Of a stretch of 27,361 nucleotides of DNA, positions 10,179 to 26,648 are shown in pieces (position 1 is the stretch's first letter; the number at the start of each line of letters is the position of its first letter). Origin of the DNA: a virus. The position numbers and the translations under genes were made by a program. Below the pieces are notes generated by a model that had not been told where the DNA came from, made no database searches, and saw only the letters and a list, made by a program, of their open reading frames with translations. The stretch lies in IMG/VR virus record IMGVR_UViG_3300030419_000691, positions 1 to 27,361 of that record, one strand, 5' to 3'.

Positions 10179-10856
10179 ATGTGCGGCCCAGCAGCAATAT
10201 TTATGGGGGTGCTGTCAGCAGGTCTGAGCATCATGCAACAACAGGCAGCAGTCAGAGCACAGAACGCACAGATAGAATATCAAAATCAAGTAGCAGAACA
10301 GGAGTATCAATACAATATAGGGAAAGCAGACGCTGCAAGAACTAACGAAGCACAACAAAAACAATTACAAGATGATGTTATAGCTCAGAACCTCTTCCTT
10401 GCTAATGAAGCATACGAAAGTGATATTGCTGCATTGAACTTAAGAATGATGCAAGAGCAAGCAGCAGCAGGAGCAGAGAAAAGGAAAGGCTCACTTGCTG
10501 CATTGCAAGCTAAAGGAGAAATAGTTGCTGCTGGTCGAGTAGGAAATAGTATTCAAAACCTTATTGCTGATGTTCAACGACAACAAGCAGCATTTGATTA
10601 TGCAACAGATCAGAATCTAGCCTTTACTGGTAAGCAATTAACAGAACAAAAACGTGGAGCAGGAGTAGAAAGAGCTAGCCGAATTGCAAGTCAACAACCA
10701 TACTTAGAACGAACGATATTAGATCCTTGGAAACCTATAAAACGACAGAAAGTAAAAGGCCCAGGATTAGTAGGGTTTTTAAGTGCTGGTTTGGGTGGAG
10801 TCACTACAGGCTTGAATACACAGGTGGGACTTAAACAAGCAGGTCTTATCGATTAA
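10179..10856 (+). CDS. Internal virion protein, T7 gp14-like
   Basis: 225 residues (T7 gp14: 196). It begins MCGPAAIFMGVLSAGLSIMQ, the short hydrophobic start found in gp14 homologues. A long Ala/Gln-rich amphipathic helix follows (residues ~20-165) and then a Gly-rich hydrophobic end (LVGFLSAGLGGVTTGLN). In T7, gp14 is part of the inner core and after ejection forms a pore in the outer membrane. The long helix and two apolar ends agree with that role. No enzyme motif is visible. It is tightly packed: 2 bases after the gp13-like stop and 3 bases before the gp15-like ATG. Confidence 0.9.
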   Translation: MCGPAAIFMGVLSAGLSIMQQQAAVRAQNAQIEYQNQVAEQEYQYNIGKADAARTNEAQQKQLQDDVIAQNLFLANEAYESDIAALNLRMMQEQAAAGAEKRKGSLAALQAKGEIVAAGRVGNSIQNLIADVQRQQAAFDYATDQNLAFTGKQLTEQKRGAGVERASRIASQQPYLERTILDPWKPIKRQKVKGPGLVGFLSAGLGGVTTGLNTQVGLKQAGLID

Positions 10857-13139: not shown

Positions 13140-16100
13140 ATGGGGCAGACAATTATAGATGAAGAGACTAAGATCGAGTCTCAAACATGGTCGGCTCCTG
13201 CAAACTTTGAACTACCTACTAAGTTTGAAGATATTCTTACTGACGAATTAACAGACGAAAAAGATACTGAACTTATAAATAATCAGAAAGATACAAATCT
13301 AATTCAAGAAAAAGAACAACGTAACTATGTACCTCCTACACCTGGAGAATATTTAGCCACTCATCCGTTAAAGCCTGGTGCTGATTTCTTAGGGAATGTT
13401 GTTAAAGGTGGGACACAACTTGCTTATAACAGTTTACTTGATAATTTATTGCAGCCGAATACTTTACTAGGAGGTGAACAGCTTGATCCTGATAACTATT
13501 CTCCTGAAACACATCCTCAGTTTTATGATAAGAAGTTTGTTACAGATAAAGATGGAAACCTTATACCTATTGAAGGCATTGAAGTAGGTGATACGACTGA
13601 TTTAAAAAAGGAATTAAATCCTCAAACTTCTACTCTTTATCAGACAGAATTTGTTGGGCCTATTAGACCTACTGTTGGTATAGATGGCAAATTCAATAGA
13701 AATCTTATTAGTATTGCAGGTAAAAATGGAATATTAGGTGAGTGGGGAAAAGCAAGAACAGCTAATAAAGATGGGGTTTGGGAGGATTACAACTTTTTAT
13801 TTAGCGATCAACCTCTTGATTATGACAAAGGCATGTTGTCAACAATGACTTCATGGCTTCTTGTTCATGCCTTAATAAGTAGAGGTGGGAAAGGAAGCAA
13901 ATTAGATTTTATGAATTGGAAGAAGCCAAGAGCTTTAACTAGATTAGGAAAACAAGTAGGTGGATTAAAAGGTTTAAAACTCAATTTGAAAGGCAGAGGA
14001 CTTAGAGCATTAACAGAAGGTCAGGCAACAAGTCTTTTGGTCAATGAAGTTCTAGGTACTCCAGGGGATACAGGCGTAGGTGGCTTTGCTTCAGATGCTG
14101 TTGTCTCTATGGGAGATCAAGCAGGCTTAAACTTAAGAAGTCCTATTACTGATTTCTTAGGCTCAGAGAATACAGCGAATGATCCATATCAAGTCGCCAA
14201 GCTTAAGAATCGACTTGCTGAACTCTTCATTGAAAATCAAGTTGGAGGTGCATTACCTGAAGGCATTGGATTAGGTAAGAATCAATTACTGAAAGCACCA
14301 GCTTTAGCAAAAAGTTTTAGCAGAGGATTTAATACACAGCTTGAAAAAGTTACAGACTTTGCAGCAGATTTAATTGTTCAACAAAAAGCAGTAAGTGATT
14401 TAGAAAAAGCTGTCGTCTTAGCTAAAGATGGCCCAACTGAAATTAAGACAGAAGTTGTTCCTACTGAAAGAATTACTGGAAGTAAGAACACTGAACCTTC
14501 AGGAAAAAAAATAGAACCAAAAGCAACACAAGAAGAATTAGATATTCAAGTTAAAGAAGCAGAAGCAGAAGTCGTTAAAGCAGAAGAAAACGTAGAGAAG
14601 TCTGTTGAAACTCTTGGACAAAGAGATGGTCTAATTAAAAACGCATTACAAGGAGAACTTAAAAAGGTTGCACAATCTGATGCAAGAGCATTAAAAGAAA
14701 CAGATGCAGTATTAAAGCAAACAAGAAAAGGTCGTAAGAAGATAGAACCTGGTACACCTCATCCAACAGATCCTAATAAAGTTAGAAGTAATAATGGCAG
14801 ATGGGTTACTAAGGCTTACTACGACAAAGTTAATAAAGCATTAGCAGGGGCAGAAGAAATCAAAAAAGAAGTCTTTGCAAAAGATAAGGCTAGAATTGAA
14901 GACTTAGGTGATGCAATTAAGAAAGCTGAAGCAACTGCTAATACTCAAAGAACAATAGAACAAATAGAAGCAGAAGTAGAAGCTCAAGTTAATTCAATGA
15001 CTGACGCTGAGATCAAAGAAAGCTTGAGACAAAATCCTAAATACAAAGAGATTATTGACGAAATGGATGCAGTAATGGAAGACATAGATAAAAATTTAAA
15101 AGATCTGAATCAGAGATTTGAAAACATAGATGAAATTATTCGTGAAACAGATGAATACCTTGATGGATTAGATGAACAAATATTCAATCCAAAGACAACA
15201 GTTGAAGACAGAATTAAATTAGAAAAGTTATATCAAGGTGCTGATGCTACTAGACAAGATTTAAAACTACAAAAGAAATATCAAGCTGAACATCTTACAA
15301 ATGAAATAGGTACTAAGCCTGAGACTGTTGAAAGTCCTTTAACAGAACGTCCTCTCTTTGGTTTTGACATTAAAGGTGCGAAGCCTAGGTGGAGGCAAAT
15401 GAGTATTGAGTTTGAATCAGATATTGATAGAGCTATTTATATAGTTACTAAAAGACAAAAAGGAAGTGGCCCTGCAAAGTCAAGACCTTTATACATTGAA
15501 CAAGCTAATAAAGATGCAAGTAGAGCTAATCATAAATATCTAGCTTTCTTATATGAAAATGGTTTTAAAGATAAAGATATTCTCAAACATGCACCAAAAA
15601 TATATAACAAACTAGCTGATAATTATAGTGCTAATAGTGTTTATGATTTAAAAGATACTGGTGCTTGGAAAGATGGTAGCGACTTTGATTTTGAGATAGA
15701 TGAATCAGAATTTTACAATCCAGAAAGAAAACTAGGCGACATAATTAAAGATGTAGATGATAAGTTAACTGATGAATATAAGGCTAGAACAAGTCCTAAA
15801 GATCCAGGTGATGCGTTTGATCCTAACAACTTTATTGATGATGAAATAATCTTTGAAGCACCTAAATTACCAATACTACCGAAGAAAGGAATTAAAGGAA
15901 AAGCTTATGAGCCAATATTAAAATCAAGAACAAATGCAATCCTTAATAGAGCTTTAGAAGAAGGTATATCCCCTGCTGGTTGGAACAAGATATTAGATGA
16001 TATGCAGAGAATCTCTGGACTATCAGATACTAATTTCAAAATAATGCCAAAGGCATCAAGAGGGCCAATATCAGCAAGGGCAGCAGCAAATTATGGAATA

Positions 16101-19100
16101 GAACCAGGCACTATTGTTACAAAAAGAGGTGGCTATGACCCAAGGAAAGATCTAATAATAATGTCGATGATGGTTGATGGAGAATATTTAGAATTTAGTA
16201 GGGGTTTACAAACTGCATGGCATGAATCTTTCCATAGATTGCAACACAGATTTCTTTCAAAAGCAGAGAAAGAAATGCTTAAAAAGGCTGCACCAAAGTT
16301 AAGAGAAATAGTTAAAGATGGTTTCCCTGAAGTAAGTGACGATTTTATTAAAAAATTAAAAGATCACGAATTACAAGCTTGGGCTTTTGGTGCTTGGTCA
16401 AATAAAGATATTAGATCTAAATACGGAAGAAATACAACATGGTCACAACCATTTAAGAAAATAAGAGAAATATTAGAGTCTGTTATTGCAGTAGTTAGGT
16501 CAGAACATAAGACATGGGATAGTTTATTTGAAGGGGCAAGGAAAGGTGAAATAGCACAACGACAAGCATTAGAAGTTCAAGCTAATGCAAGAAGAATGTC
16601 ATACGAAATAGATCCTGATGAGTTAGTAAGTGGAATGGGTAAGTATCAAGAAGGTATTGAAAATGGCGATATAACTTTAGACACTGCAATGGAATCTGAA
16701 ACTAGAAGATTAATTAGTCGTAGCGGTCAAACTGACTTTGTAAGTAGAGATAACACAGCTTTAATTGCAATGAACGCAACAATGGAAGATGCAATAAGAG
16801 GAGCGTTTGGAAGCAGAGAAGAAGTAACAAATATGCCAGCGTATAAGCTTAGACAAGTATGGGATAAAGCATCAAAACAAGTAGAAGCAGATGGTTTTGA
16901 CCCTGCTAAAACTATCGAACTATATGAATACGCAAGGAAAAATGATATTCAAGCAATGGATGATATTTACGCTGCTGCTGGAATCCTCTATCACAGAGAT
17001 TTAAACCTTAAGTTAATGACAGAAGCTGCTGTTGGCTTCAACGGAGCAGATACAGATAAAGGTGCTGCATTGTTTGGTAAGAAATTACTTGCAAGAATGG
17101 AAGATCAAATAAAGTTAGATATTGCTTGGACATCTGTTACAAGAAAAACAGGACAGATCTTACGTTTAGCTGCTACACCACATGAAGAAGTCTTAGCATC
17201 TTCATTAGCTTCTGGTGTCGAATTAAAAATGACTACCAGCAAGGAAGCTGCTACAGCAGCAACCTCTGGAGGTTTCGTACCACAGCAAGGATTAATAGGT
17301 GAAGGTGTTTACTTCTCTACCAGTTCAACTCCTGGGCCTATAGGTAGTGTGGAACTTTATGGAACTACACCTGAAGATATTTTAATTCTTGATCTTGTCT
17401 CTACAAATAAAAGGATTACAGACCTGATTAATGAATTAGGACTAGGTGTAACTAAGAAAACAAAAGACGGTATTCAACTTACACCTCAACAACAAGAAGG
17501 AATCAAAGGATGGGCAGCAGAACAAGGATACGGTGGTATTAGATATGGAACAGACTTCACTCTAAATCCAAAGACAGGAGATCAAGTTGTCGTCTTTGAT
17601 GTGAATACTGCTAATAGAATGATTGATTCAGATGCAGCAGTTCCACCACCTAAGAAAGAAACACCTTCTATAAGAACTCTTTTACAAACAGCATTACAAA
17701 AGACAGAAGAAGTTCTAGGTAAAAAGTTACCAAGGAAAGTTAGAAAGTCTATTGAGTCAGGAAACCTAACACCAGAAGCAAAGAAAATACTAGATACACT
17801 TGCTGCTATTACTTACTCAATAAAAGATGATGCTGGTGCAAAAAGAGCAATGTCAGATCTTATTGAAAGAGTTCCAGACGGCAAGCTAGACAGTTCAACA
17901 TGGGCAAATTTATATAGAAATTCTATTTTCTTTAGAATGAGAACATGGATGAAAGTGTTATTTGGTAGTGGATATAGAGCAGCAACACTTCCTATTACTC
18001 AATTAGTAGGAGAATTTGGCGACCAATTAAACATGAGTGATGCTCAAATAAAACTTTCACAAAGAAGGCAACATTTGAACCTAATGATATATCCCCAATA
18101 CATGAGAAATATTCCTTATGCACTAAGGATGATGGTTGCTGCTATGAAACATAATGAGGTGTTCGTAAACCTTGGAAGAAGAAAATACGAAAACTTAAGT
18201 ACAAGAAGTTTTAAAGAAAGACAAGAGCAGTTGGAGTTTGACTTTGAAGCAAAAACAAGATTGACAGAGCAGCCACCTGAAGGACATTTCATGTTGGATG
18301 AAAATGCTAATCCTGTCGCTCAAGGAATTTGGCAGATTGCATCAACACTTTCTGGCAGAGCATTAGGAGGATTTGACACCTTTATGGCTGGTGTTACTGG
18401 CCCTTCAACAGAATGGGCAAGAATAATGGAAATGGAATTATTTAATGCAGATGTGAAAGGCTTTGAACCTGGTTCTTCTAAAGCATGGGATTGGGCTGCT
18501 AATAGAACAGATGAAATATTGAAATCGCACTTCCAAGATGTTGATCTTGCTAATGGCGACATTATTAAAAATGGTCGATTAACAGGCAAACATGCAAAGA
18601 AAGCAATGGATTGGGTGAACTTTACTGATTCAGTAAAAGTAAAACAAGAAGAAATAAGTTATGAATACGCAGTCAGACAAGCAAGAGAAGAAGGTATAAC
18701 TGATCCTTTAAAAATAGTAGAAAGAGCAGACTTCTTAATGAAAGAAGAATTAGATCAAGGAAGTCAATTCAGACAAGCAGTAGAAGGAGCACTTAATTTT
18801 ATTCCAGACGCAGTAAGTAAAGGTCATGGCAGCGACAATCCTTTTATTGCTAACACCGTAGGTATTGCAATTCCTATAATGAGGACTCCTGCAAACTTAA
18901 CCAAGTCAGTAATACGAACACTCCCTGGGGCTAACAGAGCAGTTGATAGTTTCTGGAGAGATATACACAGTGAAGATCCGTTTACAAAACATAGAGCATT
19001 AGGAGAGGCAGGAGTTGCTTATATGACTCTTGCTTTTGGAGTAATGATTGTAAATAGTGGATATGTCGAAGTAACAGGGCCACCTCCTTTAAGTACAGCA

Positions 19101-20246
19101 AGAAGAAAAGAATTAGCAGATAAAGGATGGCAAGCGTGGAGTATTCGTTTTAAAAATCCTTGGGCTGGTGATACAGAAAACGAATGGAGTTCTTACTATT
19201 CCATAGAAATGTTCGATCAACTTGCAACTGTTTTAGGTGCAGTTGGTGCTTACACAGAAAACTACAAAGGATTAAGAGAAGAAGATAGAGAATCTTTGTT
19301 TGGGGCTGGAATGATTGCTCTTCGACAGACAGCACAAGAAATAGGAATTGGTCAATTAATTAAAGGGCCAACAAAAAGTCTTACTGATCTGATGGATGTG
19401 ATTACAGAATTAGGCAGTACAGAAAAAGCAAAAGCAGGTAGCAGAAACGTTTTTGAATATTATTTAACTAACAAATTGGCAGGTTTTTGGCCTGCTTTTA
19501 TGGATGAATCTCGTAATGCAGTTGATCCTTATGTGAAACGTATTAACCCAAGCAAATTTCCTTTTCCTTTAAATGTTGTCGAGAATGTTGCAAAGACAGT
19601 TGCAGCCAAGTCAGCAGGACTTTCTGATCTAATTCCTAATCGTTTGCATCCTGTTACAGGTGATCCAATCGTTAGTTACCAGACCCCTGGCAATCAAGGA
19701 ATAGATAAAGATATGCCTTGGTTAAAGATGCTTAGTGCAAATATGCCTTGGGGTGTAACAAAAACAAGATCACTTTCAACTGATCCAGTAGACGAAGAAA
19801 TGCTACGAATAAAAGGAAGAGGGGGTACTTTCCAGATCTGGAGCAGAAGAGCTTTTGGTTTGCCAGATAGAGTGTTAGATCAAAATGAATTAAATAGATT
19901 AATAGAAATTGGTACGAAAGAAATCAGGATAGATGGACTAACCTTGCACCAAGCATTGAAAGCTAAAGTCAATTCCCCTGTATATCAATCGTTACCTTAC
20001 GAATCAGTCTCATCTTCAATATCAACATCAAGAGGTCTTTCTTTAATGAAAACTATTAGACCTTATATAAACAAAGCTAAAGACGCTTTTGAGATTGAAT
20101 ATGACACAGGTGTAGGTTCACTTGGATGGGAGATAAAGAACTTCAAAGCTGAGCAAGCCACAAGAAAATATAATGCAGAAAGAACAGAGGCTATAATCCA
20201 AAATAGGAACACTACGTCAGAATTTAACCAGAAGGTTAACTACTAA
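13140..20246 (+). CDS. Giant internal virion (ejection) protein in the gp16 position, with zincin, ADP-ribosyltransferase-like and LPD38-like regions
   Basis: 2368 residues, far above T7 gp16 (1318). The N-terminal ~430 residues are unassigned; residues ~440-760 are charged and coiled-coil-like. Around residue 1028, WHESFHRLQH gives an HExxH zinc site (H1028, E1029, H1032). E1077 in HELQAWAFGAW is the likely third ligand, and the domain closes with FEGARKGEIAQR, as in phage polyvalent-protein metallopeptidases. Residues ~1345-1495 have an ADP-ribosyltransferase-like layout: GFVP, GEGVYFSTS (1387-1395), GYGGIRYG (1463-1470) and GDQVVVFD (1480-1487). The usual Arg/His and Glu appear replaced. 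The C-terminal part (RTPANL 1915-1920, an apolar segment 1957-1978, VTGPPP, GWQAWSIRF 1996-2004) resembles LPD38. No N-terminal transglycosylase is seen. It is probably injected ahead of the genome; activities are inferred. Confidence 0.9.
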   Translation: MGQTIIDEETKIESQTWSAPANFELPTKFEDILTDELTDEKDTELINNQKDTNLIQEKEQRNYVPPTPGEYLATHPLKPGADFLGNVVKGGTQLAYNSLLDNLLQPNTLLGGEQLDPDNYSPETHPQFYDKKFVTDKDGNLIPIEGIEVGDTTDLKKELNPQTSTLYQTEFVGPIRPTVGIDGKFNRNLISIAGKNGILGEWGKARTANKDGVWEDYNFLFSDQPLDYDKGMLSTMTSWLLVHALISRGGKGSKLDFMNWKKPRALTRLGKQVGGLKGLKLNLKGRGLRALTEGQATSLLVNEVLGTPGDTGVGGFASDAVVSMGDQAGLNLRSPITDFLGSENTANDPYQVAKLKNRLAELFIENQVGGALPEGIGLGKNQLLKAPALAKSFSRGFNTQLEKVTDFAADLIVQQKAVSDLEKAVVLAKDGPTEIKTEVVPTERITGSKNTEPSGKKIEPKATQEELDIQVKEAEAEVVKAEENVEKSVETLGQRDGLIKNALQGELKKVAQSDARALKETDAVLKQTRKGRKKIEPGTPHPTDPNKVRSNNGRWVTKAYYDKVNKALAGAEEIKKEVFAKDKARIEDLGDAIKKAEATANTQRTIEQIEAEVEAQVNSMTDAEIKESLRQNPKYKEIIDEMDAVMEDIDKNLKDLNQRFENIDEIIRETDEYLDGLDEQIFNPKTTVEDRIKLEKLYQGADATRQDLKLQKKYQAEHLTNEIGTKPETVESPLTERPLFGFDIKGAKPRWRQMSIEFESDIDRAIYIVTKRQKGSGPAKSRPLYIEQANKDASRANHKYLAFLYENGFKDKDILKHAPKIYNKLADNYSANSVYDLKDTGAWKDGSDFDFEIDESEFYNPERKLGDIIKDVDDKLTDEYKARTSPKDPGDAFDPNNFIDDEIIFEAPKLPILPKKGIKGKAYEPILKSRTNAILNRALEEGISPAGWNKILDDMQRISGLSDTNFKIMPKASRGPISARAAANYGIEPGTIVTKRGGYDPRKDLIIMSMMVDGEYLEFSRGLQTAWHESFHRLQHRFLSKAEKEMLKKAAPKLREIVKDGFPEVSDDFIKKLKDHELQAWAFGAWSNKDIRSKYGRNTTWSQPFKKIREILESVIAVVRSEHKTWDSLFEGARKGEIAQRQALEVQANARRMSYEIDPDELVSGMGKYQEGIENGDITLDTAMESETRRLISRSGQTDFVSRDNTALIAMNATMEDAIRGAFGSREEVTNMPAYKLRQVWDKASKQVEADGFDPAKTIELYEYARKNDIQAMDDIYAAAGILYHRDLNLKLMTEAAVGFNGADTDKGAALFGKKLLARMEDQIKLDIAWTSVTRKTGQILRLAATPHEEVLASSLASGVELKMTTSKEAATAATSGGFVPQQGLIGEGVYFSTSSTPGPIGSVELYGTTPEDILILDLVSTNKRITDLINELGLGVTKKTKDGIQLTPQQQEGIKGWAAEQGYGGIRYGTDFTLNPKTGDQVVVFDVNTANRMIDSDAAVPPPKKETPSIRTLLQTALQKTEEVLGKKLPRKVRKSIESGNLTPEAKKILDTLAAITYSIKDDAGAKRAMSDLIERVPDGKLDSSTWANLYRNSIFFRMRTWMKVLFGSGYRAATLPITQLVGEFGDQLNMSDAQIKLSQRRQHLNLMIYPQYMRNIPYALRMMVAAMKHNEVFVNLGRRKYENLSTRSFKERQEQLEFDFEAKTRLTEQPPEGHFMLDENANPVAQGIWQIASTLSGRALGGFDTFMAGVTGPSTEWARIMEMELFNADVKGFEPGSSKAWDWAANRTDEILKSHFQDVDLANGDIIKNGRLTGKHAKKAMDWVNFTDSVKVKQEEISYEYAVRQAREEGITDPLKIVERADFLMKEELDQGSQFRQAVEGALNFIPDAVSKGHGSDNPFIANTVGIAIPIMRTPANLTKSVIRTLPGANRAVDSFWRDIHSEDPFTKHRALGEAGVAYMTLAFGVMIVNSGYVEVTGPPPLSTARRKELADKGWQAWSIRFKNPWAGDTENEWSSYYSIEMFDQLATVLGAVGAYTENYKGLREEDRESLFGAGMIALRQTAQEIGIGQLIKGPTKSLTDLMDVITELGSTEKAKAGSRNVFEYYLTNKLAGFWPAFMDESRNAVDPYVKRINPSKFPFPLNVVENVAKTVAAKSAGLSDLIPNRLHPVTGDPIVSYQTPGNQGIDKDMPWLKMLSANMPWGVTKTRSLSTDPVDEEMLRIKGRGGTFQIWSRRAFGLPDRVLDQNELNRLIEIGTKEIRIDGLTLHQALKAKVNSPVYQSLPYESVSSSISTSRGLSLMKTIRPYINKAKDAFEIEYDTGVGSLGWEIKNFKAEQATRKYNAERTEAIIQNRNTTSEFNQKVNY

Positions 20247-20249
20247 GCC

Positions 20250-23200
20250 ATGAGTTACACAGCATCGTACATAGTAAATTCTTCGTCAGCACAGGGTACT
20301 ACTGACTTTACGTTTACCTTTCCGTACATCAAGGAAGAGCACATTGAGGTCTACCTTAATTATAACAAGATCACTCAAGGGACAGGATCTAACCAGTACC
20401 AAGTAATAACTAACGTATCTCCTAAACTGATACGACTTAATACAGGTCTAGCGTCAGCAAACTTAAGAGTAGAAGTAAGAAGAAACTCATCACTTGGTTC
20501 ACCTCTTGTCGATTATGCAGATGGTTCAACCCTTACTGCTAATGACTTAGATACAAGTGCTTTACAGAGTTTATATATAGACCAAGAGCTAAAAGATAAC
20601 CAAGGAAAAACAGTCAGCGTTGACCCTGCCACAGCCCTACCAACACTAAATAGTTTAAGACTAACGAATGTCGCTGACCCAACAGCAGCACAAGATGCAG
20701 CAACTAAGAACTATGTAGACACAACAGCCGAGCCTAAGAGTGCCAAGCTAACTGAGCTAGCAACAATGGCTCAAAATACAGCTAATGCACTAGCTGACTT
20801 AACAGAAGCCGAAGTTCAGGCAATAGATGGATTAACTGCTAGCACCGATGAATTAAATAAACTTGATGGAGTTACTGCTACAACTGCTGAACTTAATTAC
20901 GTTGATGGTGTTACTTCAAATATTCAGACTCAACTAGACGCAAAGCAACCTTTAGATGCTGAGTTAACAGAACTCGCAACAATGGGTTCTACTACAGCTT
21001 CAGCTTTGGCTGACCTAACCCAAGCGGAAGTACAGATACTGGATGGAGCCACGGTAACTACAGATGAGCTAAATATTCTTGATGGTGTAACTGCTACAAC
21101 AACAGAAATTAACTATGTTGATGGTGTTACTTCTAACGTACAAACACAGCTAGATGCAAAACAACCCTTAGATGCTGAGTTAACAGAACTCGCAACTATG
21201 AGTTCAGGGACAGCCTCTGCATTAGCTGATCTAACACAAGCAGAAGTCGAAACACTAGACGGCCTAACTGCTACCACAGCAGAACTAAATAAATTAGATG
21301 GTGTTACTGCTACAACAGATGAATTAAATAAAACAGATGGATTATTAGCGACACCAACAGAACTAAACACGCTAGATGGAATCACTTCTAATACTTCAGA
21401 ACTAAATAAATTAGATGGTGTTACGGCCTCAACTACTGAATTAAATATTGTCGCTGGTAAAACTTTTAAAACTTCCAGTGGAACATTAGATACCACTAGC
21501 GATACAGAGATACCAAGTTCAAAGGTTATTGCTGCTCACGTTGCTAGCTCTCAAACAGCTATTGGTGGTTTCGTAACTATTGCAGACGAGGTTTCGTTCC
21601 CCAATACTCAACCTGCCAATGGAGTTGTAGTCAGTATTAATAATGCTGCTGGTGTAGTAATTAACGGCTCTGGTGTAAGTACGTCAGGAAAGAGAGTTGA
21701 TAATACGACAGTAACTATTAATGGATTTCCTAGCTCGTTAAACGGAGAAACACTAGCTGCTGGTGTTGGATTAATTGTCGTATCTACTTCCACTGCCAAT
21801 ACCTATAGCTATCACAAGATTCTTTCAAGTGAGACAGATGTTAAACAGTTAAGTGATGACATCAATGACTTTAATAGCAGATATCGAATAGCTGGTTCTG
21901 CACCTGGGTCTAGTAACGATGCTGGTGATCTTTACTTTGACACTTCAGCTAACAAGATGAAGGTGTACAACGGTACAACTAATGCTTGGGATGATGTCGC
22001 TTCTGTCGGTAACTTCTATATCAATACAATCTCTAGTTCTTCTGGTACTGGTGGAGGCAGTGCAACATTTAACAATAATGCTTATAGATTTACCTTAAGC
22101 AATCCACCAACAATGGCACAGCAATTAATTGTGTCAGTTAACGGTGTAATTCAAAAACCTAACAGTGGAACTTCTCAACCTAGCGAAGGTTTTGCTATTA
22201 GTGGTAATGACATAATCTTCAGTGCTGCACCTGCATCTGGCAGTGATTACTTTATAGTTACTCAGGGATCTAGCGTATCTATTGGTACACCTAGTGATAA
22301 CACAGTTACATCAGCTAAGATTGTTGATGGAAGTATTGTCAATGGAGACATATCAAGTAGTGCAGCCATCGATGGCTCTAAAATTGCAGCTAATTCAATT
22401 GGTGCAGGTCAAATAGCTAGTTCAGCAATAACAGTTTCGGAGTTAGCGGTAGATGCTGTAGAAGACGATAGAATAAAAACATCAAACAGTCCAGCCGCAG
22501 GTAAGTATTTACAATATAAAGATGCGTCCGATAAATTAACGTGGGCTGATGGTGCGTCTGAAGGTACTGATGTTAAATCAACAGGCGAATCAGGTGGTAC
22601 TAAGTTCCTAAGAGAAGATGGAGATGGATCATGTTCTTGGCAGAATGTTGGAGGATTCTTACCTTTAACTGGAGGTACTATTAGTGGAGATACGGTAATC
22701 AGTGGAAGCAATGTTGAACTAACTTTTGGCGATGGTGTTAAAGCTGCGTTCGGCGGCGGACATGATCTAAGTGTCTTCCATTCAGGTACTGAGAATTTCA
22801 TTAGATGTGCCAATTCAGCATCTCGTTTATATATTGATTGCACTGAACATCTTAGAGTTCGACATTTAGACACGAATGGACTAAATGATGAGTCCATGAT
22901 CTATGCCAAAGGTGATGGAGCTGTAGAACTCTTTTACGACGGTGCAAAGAAAATAGAAACCACCAGTTCGGGAATCAACGTAACGGGCCAGATTAATGTT
23001 AATGGCTCTGCTTTATCGGCGGCTCCAGAAGTCTCTTTAGTAGCAGACGGAGCTATTGCAGCAAACAAACCTGTAGCTGTTCAAAGTGATGGAAAGATAA
23101 AAGAAATAAAAGAATTTGCTATATCAGCGTCAAATGGTAGTGCCACAATTATTGATGGCAGTCAAGGTCAGAGTACAATGATAAGTGATTCATGCAGGAT

Positions 23201-24440
23201 AGGAGATAATAAATTTGTTGCAGTTTGGATAGCAGATAACGATAGCGACAAGTTATACGCAGTTTGTTGCACAGTAAGTGGTACAACCATTACAGCCGGT
23301 ACTCCTGTTTTAGTCGCATCTACTGCAAATGATCGTATGATTAAATGTGCCTATGATCCTGTTAGTGATGCCCTATTAATTGTATGGGTTACTGGAACTG
23401 GAGGAAGTGCTTATGTCAAAATGAGGGCTGCAAGTATCAGTGGAACATCTCTGACTTTTGGAACAGAACTCTCTGAAGCTCACAACTCGGCTCAAGTTAT
23501 TTCTCTTTGTTCTAATGAAAATGGTGGGTTCTTGGCTGCATGGACTGGAAATTATGCTTCTGCAATGCAAGCTTATACCGTTAGTGGTAATACAATCACA
23601 AAAGGTAGTACGTCAAATTCAAACCTAAGAAGTGATTTTAGGCCAGAGAGAAATGCTGTAGATATTGTCTATCACAAAGATGATGGTAAATACATCGTTG
23701 GCTGGTGCTTAGACGGTGGAGACATGAAAGGTATGGTAACAACAGTAACTGGAACTACTATTAGCAATAGCTCACTAAGCAATCTTGGTAATGCTAATGA
23801 GAAAATGTTGCAACTAGCTTATGACGAAGAAAACAAGCAAGTGTTCTGTGTCTATTATGAAAGTAGTAAATTATATGGAAATATATGGTCAATAAGTGGA
23901 GATTCTATATCAAAAGCTAACGATACTAACTTTGGTAATGAGAATCCACAAGCATTTAGAGTTGATTACAACTCAGATACTAAGAAAGCAATAGTTATGA
24001 TTAGAGATGGCAATGGTTCAACAGCTAAGAAAACTTCTTGGGCTGAGCTAACTAATAATAGTGGCACTCCTGCTCTAGGTTCATACACACAAATTTGGAC
24101 TAGCGAATCTGCCTTTATAAATATTTCCTATATAGGAAAAGGTAAATTTGTTACTGCCTGGAGGGGTGCAAGTGAACATGGCTATGCAACTATTTGGCAA
24201 AGAGCATTTACTGATTCAACTTTAACTGAAGGTTATATTGGGTTTAGCAGTGCTGCAATTAATGACACAGCAACAGGAACAATTGGAGTAGTTGGCAATA
24301 CTAATTCAAGTCAATCAGGATTAACTGCTGGAAAAAAATACTATGTTACAAGAACTGGAGGTTTATCTACAACAGCCGCAACTCCAAGCGTAGAAGCTGG
24401 CATTGCCTTATCTTCCACTAAACTATTAATCAAAGGGTAA
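20250..24440 (+). CDS. Tail fibre with T7 gp17-type N-terminal anchor and seven-repeat C-terminal tip
   Basis: 1396 residues (T7 gp17: 553). Residues 1-~150 are the T7 tail-fibre N-terminal domain (MSYTASYIVNSSSAQGTTDF, FTFPYIKEEHIEVYLN, then LRVEVRRNSS), which docks on the tail tube. After TKNYVDT come 72-residue repeats and 13-residue TELNxLDGVTA repeats (~169-400), a probable triple-stranded shaft. A mid region has strand-turn repeats, then a VADGAIAANKPV motif (~929). Next are seven repeats of about 45 residues (~975-1325), each with a W/Y strand and an SGxxI turn, read as a seven-bladed beta-propeller. The end contains QSGLTAGKKYYV and AGIALSSTKLLIKG. The tip is the likely receptor binder. 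The gene starts 3 bases after the gp16-like stop. Confidence 0.93.
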   Translation: MSYTASYIVNSSSAQGTTDFTFTFPYIKEEHIEVYLNYNKITQGTGSNQYQVITNVSPKLIRLNTGLASANLRVEVRRNSSLGSPLVDYADGSTLTANDLDTSALQSLYIDQELKDNQGKTVSVDPATALPTLNSLRLTNVADPTAAQDAATKNYVDTTAEPKSAKLTELATMAQNTANALADLTEAEVQAIDGLTASTDELNKLDGVTATTAELNYVDGVTSNIQTQLDAKQPLDAELTELATMGSTTASALADLTQAEVQILDGATVTTDELNILDGVTATTTEINYVDGVTSNVQTQLDAKQPLDAELTELATMSSGTASALADLTQAEVETLDGLTATTAELNKLDGVTATTDELNKTDGLLATPTELNTLDGITSNTSELNKLDGVTASTTELNIVAGKTFKTSSGTLDTTSDTEIPSSKVIAAHVASSQTAIGGFVTIADEVSFPNTQPANGVVVSINNAAGVVINGSGVSTSGKRVDNTTVTINGFPSSLNGETLAAGVGLIVVSTSTANTYSYHKILSSETDVKQLSDDINDFNSRYRIAGSAPGSSNDAGDLYFDTSANKMKVYNGTTNAWDDVASVGNFYINTISSSSGTGGGSATFNNNAYRFTLSNPPTMAQQLIVSVNGVIQKPNSGTSQPSEGFAISGNDIIFSAAPASGSDYFIVTQGSSVSIGTPSDNTVTSAKIVDGSIVNGDISSSAAIDGSKIAANSIGAGQIASSAITVSELAVDAVEDDRIKTSNSPAAGKYLQYKDASDKLTWADGASEGTDVKSTGESGGTKFLREDGDGSCSWQNVGGFLPLTGGTISGDTVISGSNVELTFGDGVKAAFGGGHDLSVFHSGTENFIRCANSASRLYIDCTEHLRVRHLDTNGLNDESMIYAKGDGAVELFYDGAKKIETTSSGINVTGQINVNGSALSAAPEVSLVADGAIAANKPVAVQSDGKIKEIKEFAISASNGSATIIDGSQGQSTMISDSCRIGDNKFVAVWIADNDSDKLYAVCCTVSGTTITAGTPVLVASTANDRMIKCAYDPVSDALLIVWVTGTGGSAYVKMRAASISGTSLTFGTELSEAHNSAQVISLCSNENGGFLAAWTGNYASAMQAYTVSGNTITKGSTSNSNLRSDFRPERNAVDIVYHKDDGKYIVGWCLDGGDMKGMVTTVTGTTISNSSLSNLGNANEKMLQLAYDEENKQVFCVYYESSKLYGNIWSISGDSISKANDTNFGNENPQAFRVDYNSDTKKAIVMIRDGNGSTAKKTSWAELTNNSGTPALGSYTQIWTSESAFINISYIGKGKFVTAWRGASEHGYATIWQRAFTDSTLTEGYIGFSSAAINDTATGTIGVVGNTNSSQSGLTAGKKYYVTRTGGLSTTAATPSVEAGIALSSTKLLIKG
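20754..21436 (+). repeat. Tandem repeats in the fibre shaft: 216-bp units and 39-bp sub-repeats
   Basis: Units begin at 20754, 20970 and 21186, exactly 216 bases (72 codons) apart, each opening with the codons for ELATM. The sequence TTAGATGCTGAGTTAACAG and the ten bases after it are identical at 20952-20980 and 21168-21196. The third unit departs after ~120 bases into additional 39-base (13-residue) ELNxLDGxxAxT repeats. Whole-codon periodicity indicates growth by in-frame duplication, a route to changing fibre length. Confidence 0.88.
24432..24437 (+). promoter_or_regulatory. Ribosome binding site for the second fibre-like gene
   Basis: AAAGGG, nine bases before the ATG at 24447, overlapping the last codons of the preceding fibre gene. 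It supports the chosen start. Confidence 0.5.
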
Positions 24441-24446
24441 TCACAA

Positions 24447-26648
24447 ATGGCATTAACAAAAATCTCTACAGGCGGTGTTAAAGATGATACCGCTGATGAA
24501 GCAAAACTCAAAGTAAGTAACGCTGGGAGTAATGGACAGTTCCTACAGAAACAATCAGGTAATACTGGTGGATTGACTTGGGCTACTGTTGCTGTTCCTG
24601 ACTCAGATAAAATTGAAGAAGGTCAGGCATCAGTAGAATGTGACGCTACTGGTGGATCAGACCATGTAGAAGTAAAAACCGCAAATACACAAAGAATACT
24701 AGTTCAAACTAGTGGAGTTGTTAATGTTGGTGGTGCTGGTGGAGATCTTAACTCTGTCAATTTCAGTGTAAAAGGATCATCCGTTACAAGTAATGTTGGA
24801 AAAGTTGCTATCGGTTCATCTTATAGCAATATGCCTAATGCTGATAATTTAGGTTTAGGTCAAATTCTTTTTGGTCATGGTACAACTACCTCTGGCCCTA
24901 TCATTGAAGGAGCATCAGCAGGCGGTTGGTCAACAAATAATCTACCTTCACAGTTAAAGTTTTATACAGTTCCAGGGAGTTCAACTACCCAAACTGAACG
25001 ACTTAGAATATCTAAAGATGGAGCTCTAGGAATAGGTGGAGCTAATTATGGTACGTCTGGACATGTCCTTACGTCTGGTGGTGGTAGTGCGGCTCCTAGT
25101 TGGGCTGCTATTCCTCCAGCAGGTAATACCATTGATTTAGTAGCTGATGGTGCTATCGCTGCTGGTAAACCAGTAATTATCAAAAGCAACGGTAAAGCAG
25201 AACAAGTAGGAGAACAGTTAAATGCTATCAGCCCAATAACTAACAATAGTGGAAGTTACTGGATAGGGAGTTTTAATAATGGAAAATATTATGATATTTG
25301 CTATGACGAAGCGAATGAAGGTGTTTGGACAATTTATACAGTAGGAAATGCTAGTGATAGAATTGATGTTGCATTTAATAAAATAAGAACTGGAACTTTC
25401 AATGATTTCATCGATTCATCTAGTGGTAACTATCAAGAAACAACCGTAGATTCTTCAACAAGTTGTTCGGCTCCTCAAATAGAATATGACCCAGACACTC
25501 AAAGAGCAGTAGCTATATGGATTGATAATAATAATTTAAGGGCAGCAGTTCTGAAATACGACTCAAGCAACAATAGTATTACGGTGGGTTCAGAAACAAC
25601 TGTTTTTACTGGAGGTGCATATCAGCCAACTATGTGTTATGACACTGCCAACAATAGAATGGTTGTTGGTGCTGTCCGTACAAGCAGTGGTAATCATTTC
25701 CGAGCTTATGTAGGTGAAGTTACAGGAGGTAGTACAAACTCTATATCTTTTGGAAGTCTATCTCATAATCAAGGTGTAACAGGAACTACAGAGAATAGAT
25801 TTCCAACTCTTGTCTATGATCCAGATAATGAAAAAATAATCCTATATACACGATGTGATGGAGGTTCTTGGTCTAATGATGGAGTTATTTGCGTAGGTAC
25901 TGTTAGTGGAGGATCACTGACTTGGAATGGTGCTCACAATATGGGAAGTAATCACGGCCCAGGTACTATTGTTTATGACCCAAATGTAAATAAATTTCTA
26001 TTATGGTTTCCAAATATAGGTGATTCAAATAACAGATATACAAAGGTAGTCACTGTTAGTGGTACAAGTGTATCTGCTGGTAATACTACAGCTCAAAGTA
26101 ATACAGGTCGAGGTACTAGTGGTACTGGAAACCAATCAATGACCTACTGTCCTGTTACTAATAAAATTGTATTCTTCTACTTTACTGAAAATGGTTATGA
26201 TTTAAAATTTACAAGTGGAACTATTAGTGGAACAGGTATAACAATTGATTCTCCTATTAATATTGATACAAATAATATTTATCGTTCAACTGATTTCCCT
26301 GGATTTGCTGGTACATATACTAAGAATGGACAACATTTAATTATACATAGACAGTCAAACAATAATGATAGAGTTTATATAAGGAATGTAAGAACTGCAA
26401 GCGTTACTACTAATGCTACTGCTACTAATGTTATAGGTTTTGCACCTTCAGCAATTAGTGATGGAAATACAGGAACTATAAATACATCTGGAAATACTGT
26501 TGAAAATCAATCTGGTTTAACTGCTGGTACTAGGTATTACGTTAAAGGTGATGGAACATTAGTTACATCAGGTTATGCAAGTACAGCAGGAGGTGTAGCA
26601 GTTTCATCAAGCAAAATCATTATTAGAACAACTAGTGAAACAGCTTAA
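24447..26648 (+). CDS. Second tail-fibre/receptor-binding-like protein with seven-repeat tip (733 aa)
   Basis: It begins MALTKISTGGVKDDTADEAK, a start I associate with marine phage fibre proteins, and has no T7-type anchor. Residues ~30-45 (NGQFLQKQSG to GLTW) echo a GKYLQYKDAS to LTW motif in the preceding fibre. After a glycine/serine-rich middle comes VADGAIAAGKPV (~230). Seven repeats follow (~278-660), most opening with a YDP/YD turn (EYDPDTQRAVAIW, VYDPDNEKIILY, VYDPNVNKFLLWF). The end includes QSGLTAGTRYYV and AGGVAVSSSKIIIR. The same order of motifs closes the 1396-aa fibre, so the two C-terminal halves look paralogous. It could be a separate fibre, a tip subunit bound to the first, or an alternative receptor binder. 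It starts 6 bases after the fibre stop. Confidence 0.82.
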   Translation: MALTKISTGGVKDDTADEAKLKVSNAGSNGQFLQKQSGNTGGLTWATVAVPDSDKIEEGQASVECDATGGSDHVEVKTANTQRILVQTSGVVNVGGAGGDLNSVNFSVKGSSVTSNVGKVAIGSSYSNMPNADNLGLGQILFGHGTTTSGPIIEGASAGGWSTNNLPSQLKFYTVPGSSTTQTERLRISKDGALGIGGANYGTSGHVLTSGGGSAAPSWAAIPPAGNTIDLVADGAIAAGKPVIIKSNGKAEQVGEQLNAISPITNNSGSYWIGSFNNGKYYDICYDEANEGVWTIYTVGNASDRIDVAFNKIRTGTFNDFIDSSSGNYQETTVDSSTSCSAPQIEYDPDTQRAVAIWIDNNNLRAAVLKYDSSNNSITVGSETTVFTGGAYQPTMCYDTANNRMVVGAVRTSSGNHFRAYVGEVTGGSTNSISFGSLSHNQGVTGTTENRFPTLVYDPDNEKIILYTRCDGGSWSNDGVICVGTVSGGSLTWNGAHNMGSNHGPGTIVYDPNVNKFLLWFPNIGDSNNRYTKVVTVSGTSVSAGNTTAQSNTGRGTSGTGNQSMTYCPVTNKIVFFYFTENGYDLKFTSGTISGTGITIDSPINIDTNNIYRSTDFPGFAGTYTKNGQHLIIHRQSNNNDRVYIRNVRTASVTTNATATNVIGFAPSAISDGNTGTINTSGNTVENQSGLTAGTRYYVKGDGTLVTSGYASTAGGVAVSSSKIIIRTTSETA

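Follow-up and report, generated by a model that had tools for sequence, protein, structure and literature searches.

A conserved zincin-like metallopeptidase domain predicted between the cargo and gp16-like parts of a giant protein of T7-like ocean phages

What does an HExxH motif do in the middle of a giant protein encoded at the position of T7 gp16? The question is raised by the IMG/VR virus fragment IMGVR_UViG_3300030419_000691, a partial genome of 27,361 bases that was analysed over its whole length and is called the window here. An earlier note, made from the DNA letters, had proposed that the motif, HESFH, belongs to a zinc metallopeptidase domain of the kind found in phage polyvalent proteins. 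On the basis of sequence comparison and a predicted model, we assign residues about 945-1141 of this 2368-residue protein to the zincins with high confidence. Peptidase activity of the domain, directed at the injected polypeptide or its partners, is a proposal for which we see an even balance.

The translation of the open reading frame (ORF) 13140-20246 places HESFH at residues 1028-1032, within WHESFHRLQH, and the proposed third zinc ligand, E1077, in HELQAWAFGAW, 45 residues past H1032. The domain ends, as the earlier note described, with FEGARKGEIAQR at residues 1130-1141, and its GEIxxR pattern appears again in the distant relatives L121 (SGEIAQR) and L117 (SGETARR). HESFH is the only HExxH in the 2368 amino acids, for which composition predicts 0.019. 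A lone HExxH is weak evidence because T7 gp16 carries an HERLH of its own at residue 559, the first histidine of which is replaced in T7 relatives. The earlier note stated that T7 gp16 has no such domain; its HERLH is not conserved, and it has no conserved zincin motif.

Conservation was examined in relatives gathered in rounds, from which 55 non-redundant sequences, with identity to the window protein down to 16%, were aligned. The only invariant columns of this alignment are H1028, E1029, H1032, and E1077, each present in 55/55 sequences. Since motif-based searches are biased, two motif-independent checks were made. In one collection round most loci were fetched only by a pattern for the helix that bears the glutamate, and all of these carry HE[AS][FW]H. 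For the second sample, the gp16-like C-terminal half served as the only query and gave 80 loci; many of the contigs are shared with earlier rounds, and 13 loci have motif variants that the earlier patterns could not find. The zincin lies upstream in the same frame in 70 of the 80 loci. H-E-H is kept in every locus that reaches the motif (66/66) and the downstream glutamate in 68/68, the missing ones being contig ends, and the x residues of the motif vary (S/A/C/N and F/V/M/T). Five gp16-like loci of this sample, one of which is truncated at the 5' end, lack the domain entirely, and no degenerate copy was seen among the readable loci, such that the domain is either intact or absent. The residues on which the earlier proposal depended are therefore kept without exception in its homologues. 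The predicted domain is common to a broad group of ocean phages that includes common Prochlorococcus phages, in which it is annotated 'hypothetical'. In a collection of bacterial and archaeal genomes, a scan with a single peptide pattern confirmed no relatives.

The 55-row alignment of the domain was used as input for AlphaFold2, yielding a model with a predicted local distance difference test score (pLDDT) of 86.6 and a predicted template modelling score of 0.83. From its N-terminus, the model runs through a helix and short strands to the helix that bears HESFH (model residues 84-102) and then to the one with E1077 (140-150); this order of elements matches that of a zincin, with a helix, a three-stranded sheet, and two C-terminal helices. 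The structure-prediction check suggested by the earlier note thus returned a zincin-like fold. In a Foldseek search of the PDB the best matches were anthrax lethal factor chains, with M32 carboxypeptidases next and TACE further down; all are zincins, with E-values no better than 0.2. The viral library BFVD gave the relative from the phage S31-C1 at 1.4e-6, and then crAss-like zincin fusions, polyvalent proteins, IrrE, and SprT. An earlier AlphaFold2 model made from 17 sequences was discarded for its low pLDDT of 66.7, along with a meaningless Foldseek search. Comparison of the domain profile with PDB sequences gave only weak matches to FtsH, located at the FtsH HExxH helix.

Profile comparison links the domain to the virion RNA polymerase (vRNAP) of phage N4, the domain of which is the prototype of the zincin-like metallopeptidases of polyvalent proteins (Iyer et al. 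2017, PMC5512222) and is included in a solved structure (PMC12633501; PDB entries such as 9pnr). Alignment with hhalign against eleven N4-type vRNAP domains gave a score of 42.9 (E-value 2.7e-5, probability 74% for this one pair), with the N-terminal helix, the strands, and the HExxH in register, vs controls of at most 20.2 for column shuffles (150 trials), 21.3 for the reversed alignment, and 21.0 for unrelated slices. The N4 set was drawn from a phage collection; IMG/VR gave almost no diverse N4 or ArdC-type (L046) relatives. The distant relatives also keep the company of other polyvalent domains. In L121 the zincin shares a protein with LPD39, LPD3, SNF2, and a methylase, and in L123 with InPase, ART-PolyVal, and LPD38; such company was also found in L122, and the window protein itself has only an unproven region resembling ADP-ribosyltransferases (ART-like). 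Together with the N4 profile match, the polyvalent domains identified by Pfam in relatives bear out the proposed kinship with polyvalent-protein zincins. No Pfam model covers the window clade. The Pfam model MPTase-PolyVal (PF18818), applied at its curated cut-off to the window and 11 other records, matched only one of the latter (L046), and there in another gene. That gene, at L046:871-1935 in the genome of L032, is a separate ArdC-like gene with a clear match (4e-35), and the same phage carries a window-type zincin as well. Two giant proteins of 3519 and 3883 amino acids (L135 and L142), probably from crAss-like phages, carry TAYHE[SA]FHGVFRNLLT and weakly related zincins. The text of Iyer et al. 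(PMC5512222), who distinguish 12 metallopeptidase clades, has no mention of T7-like, internal virion, or Prochlorococcus proteins, which, for one text, is no proof of novelty.

Within the window protein, the domain separates an N-terminal cargo part from a C-terminal part that is gp16-like. The profile of the latter matches the 'internal virion protein D' of Roseobacter phage CRP-804 (hmmsearch 5.6e-20, hhalign 6e-26) and also the zincin-less gp16-position protein of P-SCSP2 (1.9e-8); profile comparison detected no homology to the C2 domain of N4 and none directly to T7 gp16. In a further 15 lineages no domain follows the zincin in its gene, which stops 181-248 amino acids after the motif where the gene end is complete, and a gp16-position ORF lies directly downstream wherever the contig reaches. 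Taken together, these downstream ORFs match the window C-terminal part at 8e-14, and a single member such as S31-C1 falls below significance alone. On the tree, the distribution of fused and split forms takes three changes to explain, and supported branches force at least two of them. Upstream of the zincin, the region of residues about 729-829 is common to P-SCSP1, P-SCSP2, and S31-C1 phages, as found by blastp for P-SCSP1o and S31-C1 and by tblastn of the S31-C1 protein for P-SCSP2. P-SCSP1o gp21 (L004) and the S31-C1 protein (L005) have a ParB-like motif (VVNGHNRL) upstream of the zincin, as in polyvalent DdrB-ParB, which the window protein does not have. Between the zincin and the gp16-like part lies the ART-like insert, which the window clade has and the L049/L050/L034 group lacks. 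This region (GEGVYFS...) keeps the tyrosine and the strand-5 aspartate, and the expected strand-1 histidine reads methionine in the window; it has no Pfam match, and its hhalign score was 19.2 vs 16.6 in shuffles. It is possibly a degenerate ADP-ribosyltransferase.

Judging from the fold, the conservation, and the polyvalent-protein literature, H1028, H1032, and E1077 would coordinate Zn2+ and E1029 would activate water. The peptidase would then cut the giant polypeptide or partner cargo proteins, at assembly or at entry, and this cleavage would free the N-terminal cargo from the C-terminal membrane or channel part. That the quartet is intact, general base included, speaks for peptidase activity, and the place at the cargo/gp16 joint, together with the precedent of P1 DdrB, favors processing; DdrB is processed before packaging, and Iyer et al. 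2017 inferred that it processes itself (PMC5512222). We hold the processing of the injected cargo polypeptide or of partner proteins by an active zincin to be about evenly poised, with zinc binding, activity, and self-processing all predicted properties. A more specific version, in which members of this previously unmodelled clade are hinge proteases of T7-type ejection machines that sever cargo from the gp16 channel part inside the cell, in an N4-like delivery of effectors, is tentative and rather doubtful. Several points weigh against the overall reading. The N4 relative is reported as packaged unprocessed (PMC5512222), and full-length vRNAP of 3500 residues was expressed and solved with the HExxH domain present (PMC12633501). 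An intact zincin is retained in lineages in which the joint is already split at the gene level, and joint cleavage therefore cannot be the sole job of the domain. Packaging and ejection of the giant protein are themselves inferred, and no PDB Foldseek E-value is significant by itself (best 0.2).

Cutting of a host protein is a serious rival, given that the intact domain persists in split lineages and that N4 vRNAP goes into the virion, and can be obtained, at full length. As an injected effector, the active zincin would cleave a defence, replication, or envelope factor of the host after entry and not phage proteins, an alternative named by Iyer et al. 2017 (PMC5512222). The retention of the quartet in lineages with a separate gp16-position gene, the host-directed domains that accompany the zincin in relatives (ART-PolyVal, SNF2, methylase), and the five gp16-like relatives without the domain, which fit an accessory function, are consistent with such a role. 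However, the location at the cargo/gp16 joint fits processing better, and the sole experimentally hinted precedent, DdrB, is one of processing; we give the host-directed role a sizeable minority of the probability. It is improbable that the domain binds zinc only to stabilise the fold of the ejection protein. The N4 HExxH domain does lie within a larger autoinhibitory C-terminal region for which no cleavage is reported (PMC12633501), yet the general base E1029, dispensable for zinc binding, is as invariant here as the ligands (55/55, 66/66). The least likely function is wall opening, in which the zincin would cut peptide cross-bridges in place of the transglycosylase that forms the N-terminus of T7 gp16 (PMC8954989). 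A Pfam scan of the window structural proteins found no peptidoglycan hydrolase, although negative scans are weak for a partial genome; the detectable relatives are polyvalent metallopeptidases without a wall role and the domain lies mid-protein, which leaves this role a very slim chance. A chance HExxH in a helical protein with no zincin, for which T7 gp16 and its HERLH offer an example, was rejected as hardly credible: that control motif is not conserved, whereas the window motif is kept in 66/66 motif-independent loci, and both the predicted fold and the N4 profile match point to a genuine domain.

The assignment of the giant protein to the gp16 position follows from its neighbors. By Pfam, the window has a T7-like gene order of portal, scaffold, capsid, tube, nozzle, gp13, gp14, gp15 position, giant protein, and T7-type tail fibre, with the giant protein where T7 gp16 is expected, after gp14 and gp15 and before the tail fibre. 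From this order and the gp16-like homology, the protein is probably carried in the phage head and injected along with the DNA. Scans with Pfam, NCBIfam, and PHROGs placed it in no functional family, and Pfam found no lytic transglycosylase in it, unlike the N-terminus of T7 gp16. The coordinates are collected in the table. The tail proteins at 20250-24440 and 24447-26648 both contain a similar distal stretch (VADGAIAA.KPV...GK...), suggesting a duplicated receptor-side domain.

Table. Positions in the window of the giant protein, its predicted parts, and its neighbors
Feature	Position	Strand	Basis
gp14-like internal virion protein	10179..10856	+	Pfam T7_gp14, E 5e-13
gp15-position protein, 755 amino acids	10860..13127	+	Position only; no family match
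Giant gp16-position (internal virion/ejection) protein, 2368 amino acids	13140..20246	+	ORF and translation; T7 gene order
Conserved upstream domain, function unassigned, residues about 729-829, motif RWRQM.IEFESDIDRAIYI	15324..15626	+	blastp/tblastn
Predicted zincin-like metallopeptidase domain, residues about 945-1141	15972..16562	+	AlphaFold2; 55-sequence alignment; N4 vRNAP profile match
HESFH, with H1028 and H1032 as predicted zinc ligands and E1029 as predicted catalytic base	16221..16235	+	Invariance in relatives
E1077, predicted third zinc ligand, in the following helix	16368..16370	+	Invariance; model helix 140-150
gp16-like C-terminal part, residues about 1168-2368	16641..20243	+	Profile matches
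ART-like region, residues 1349-1544	17184..17771	+	Alignment; insert between zincin and gp16-like parts
Tail fibre, T7-type N-terminus	20250..24440	+	Pfam Phage_T7_tail, E 1.9e-22

For the P-SCSP1-type (MPP-C) cyanophages, which reportedly contribute almost half of the cyanopodovirus reads in the surface ocean (PMC9860041), these results supply a function that can be tested for their largest 'hypothetical' protein. They also tie T7-type gp16 ejection proteins to N4-type polyvalent proteins through a shared predicted metallopeptidase at the cargo/channel joint. If the domain does act as a hinge protease, T7-like ocean phages would deliver enzymatic effectors through the gp16 apparatus as N4 delivers its RNA polymerase. 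Since P-SCSP1 phages are cultured on Prochlorococcus MED4, any cleavage could be sought directly by proteomics of virions and infected cells.

Among known systems, the C1 domain of N4 vRNAP (residues 2124-2375) shares the HExxH, the downstream helix with the glutamate, and detectable profile homology, and in both the domain connects a cargo part with a long, helical C-terminal part of a giant protein, ejected in N4 and probably also in the window phage. The window cargo differs in not being an RNA polymerase, the C-terminal part in being gp16-like, and most members of the window clade have RxQ after the HExxH. With T7 gp16 and internal virion protein D the window protein shares gene position, and its C-terminal part is homologous to the annotated internal virion protein D of CRP-804, though not by any direct profile match to T7 gp16; it is longer, with 2368 amino acids vs 609-1337 in reviewed homologues (PMC8954989). 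The ArdC-associated MPTase-PolyVal family (PF18818) is likewise a polyvalent HExxH zincin, although its model misses the window clade, and the resemblance to anthrax lethal factor and the M32 carboxypeptidases is one of fold only, without sequence similarity. The same domain, with the quartet intact, is found in gp21 of the Prochlorococcus MPP-C cyanophage P-SCSP1 and in the polyvalent protein of the uncultured Nohivirus S31-C1; both differ from the window in their upstream ParB-like motif, and in S31-C1 the gp16-position part is a separate gene. An earlier study (PMC9860041) named P-SCSP1a g20/g21 and P-SCSP2 g29/g31 as candidate internal virion proteins, which it was unable to annotate and which it described as showing no similarity between the two phages. 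In our comparison P-SCSP2 g30 (L043:7654-12444) is a gp16-position relative without the zincin, the start of g31 resembles a T7-type tail fibre, and P-SCSP1 g21 is a homologue of the window protein with its zincin intact.

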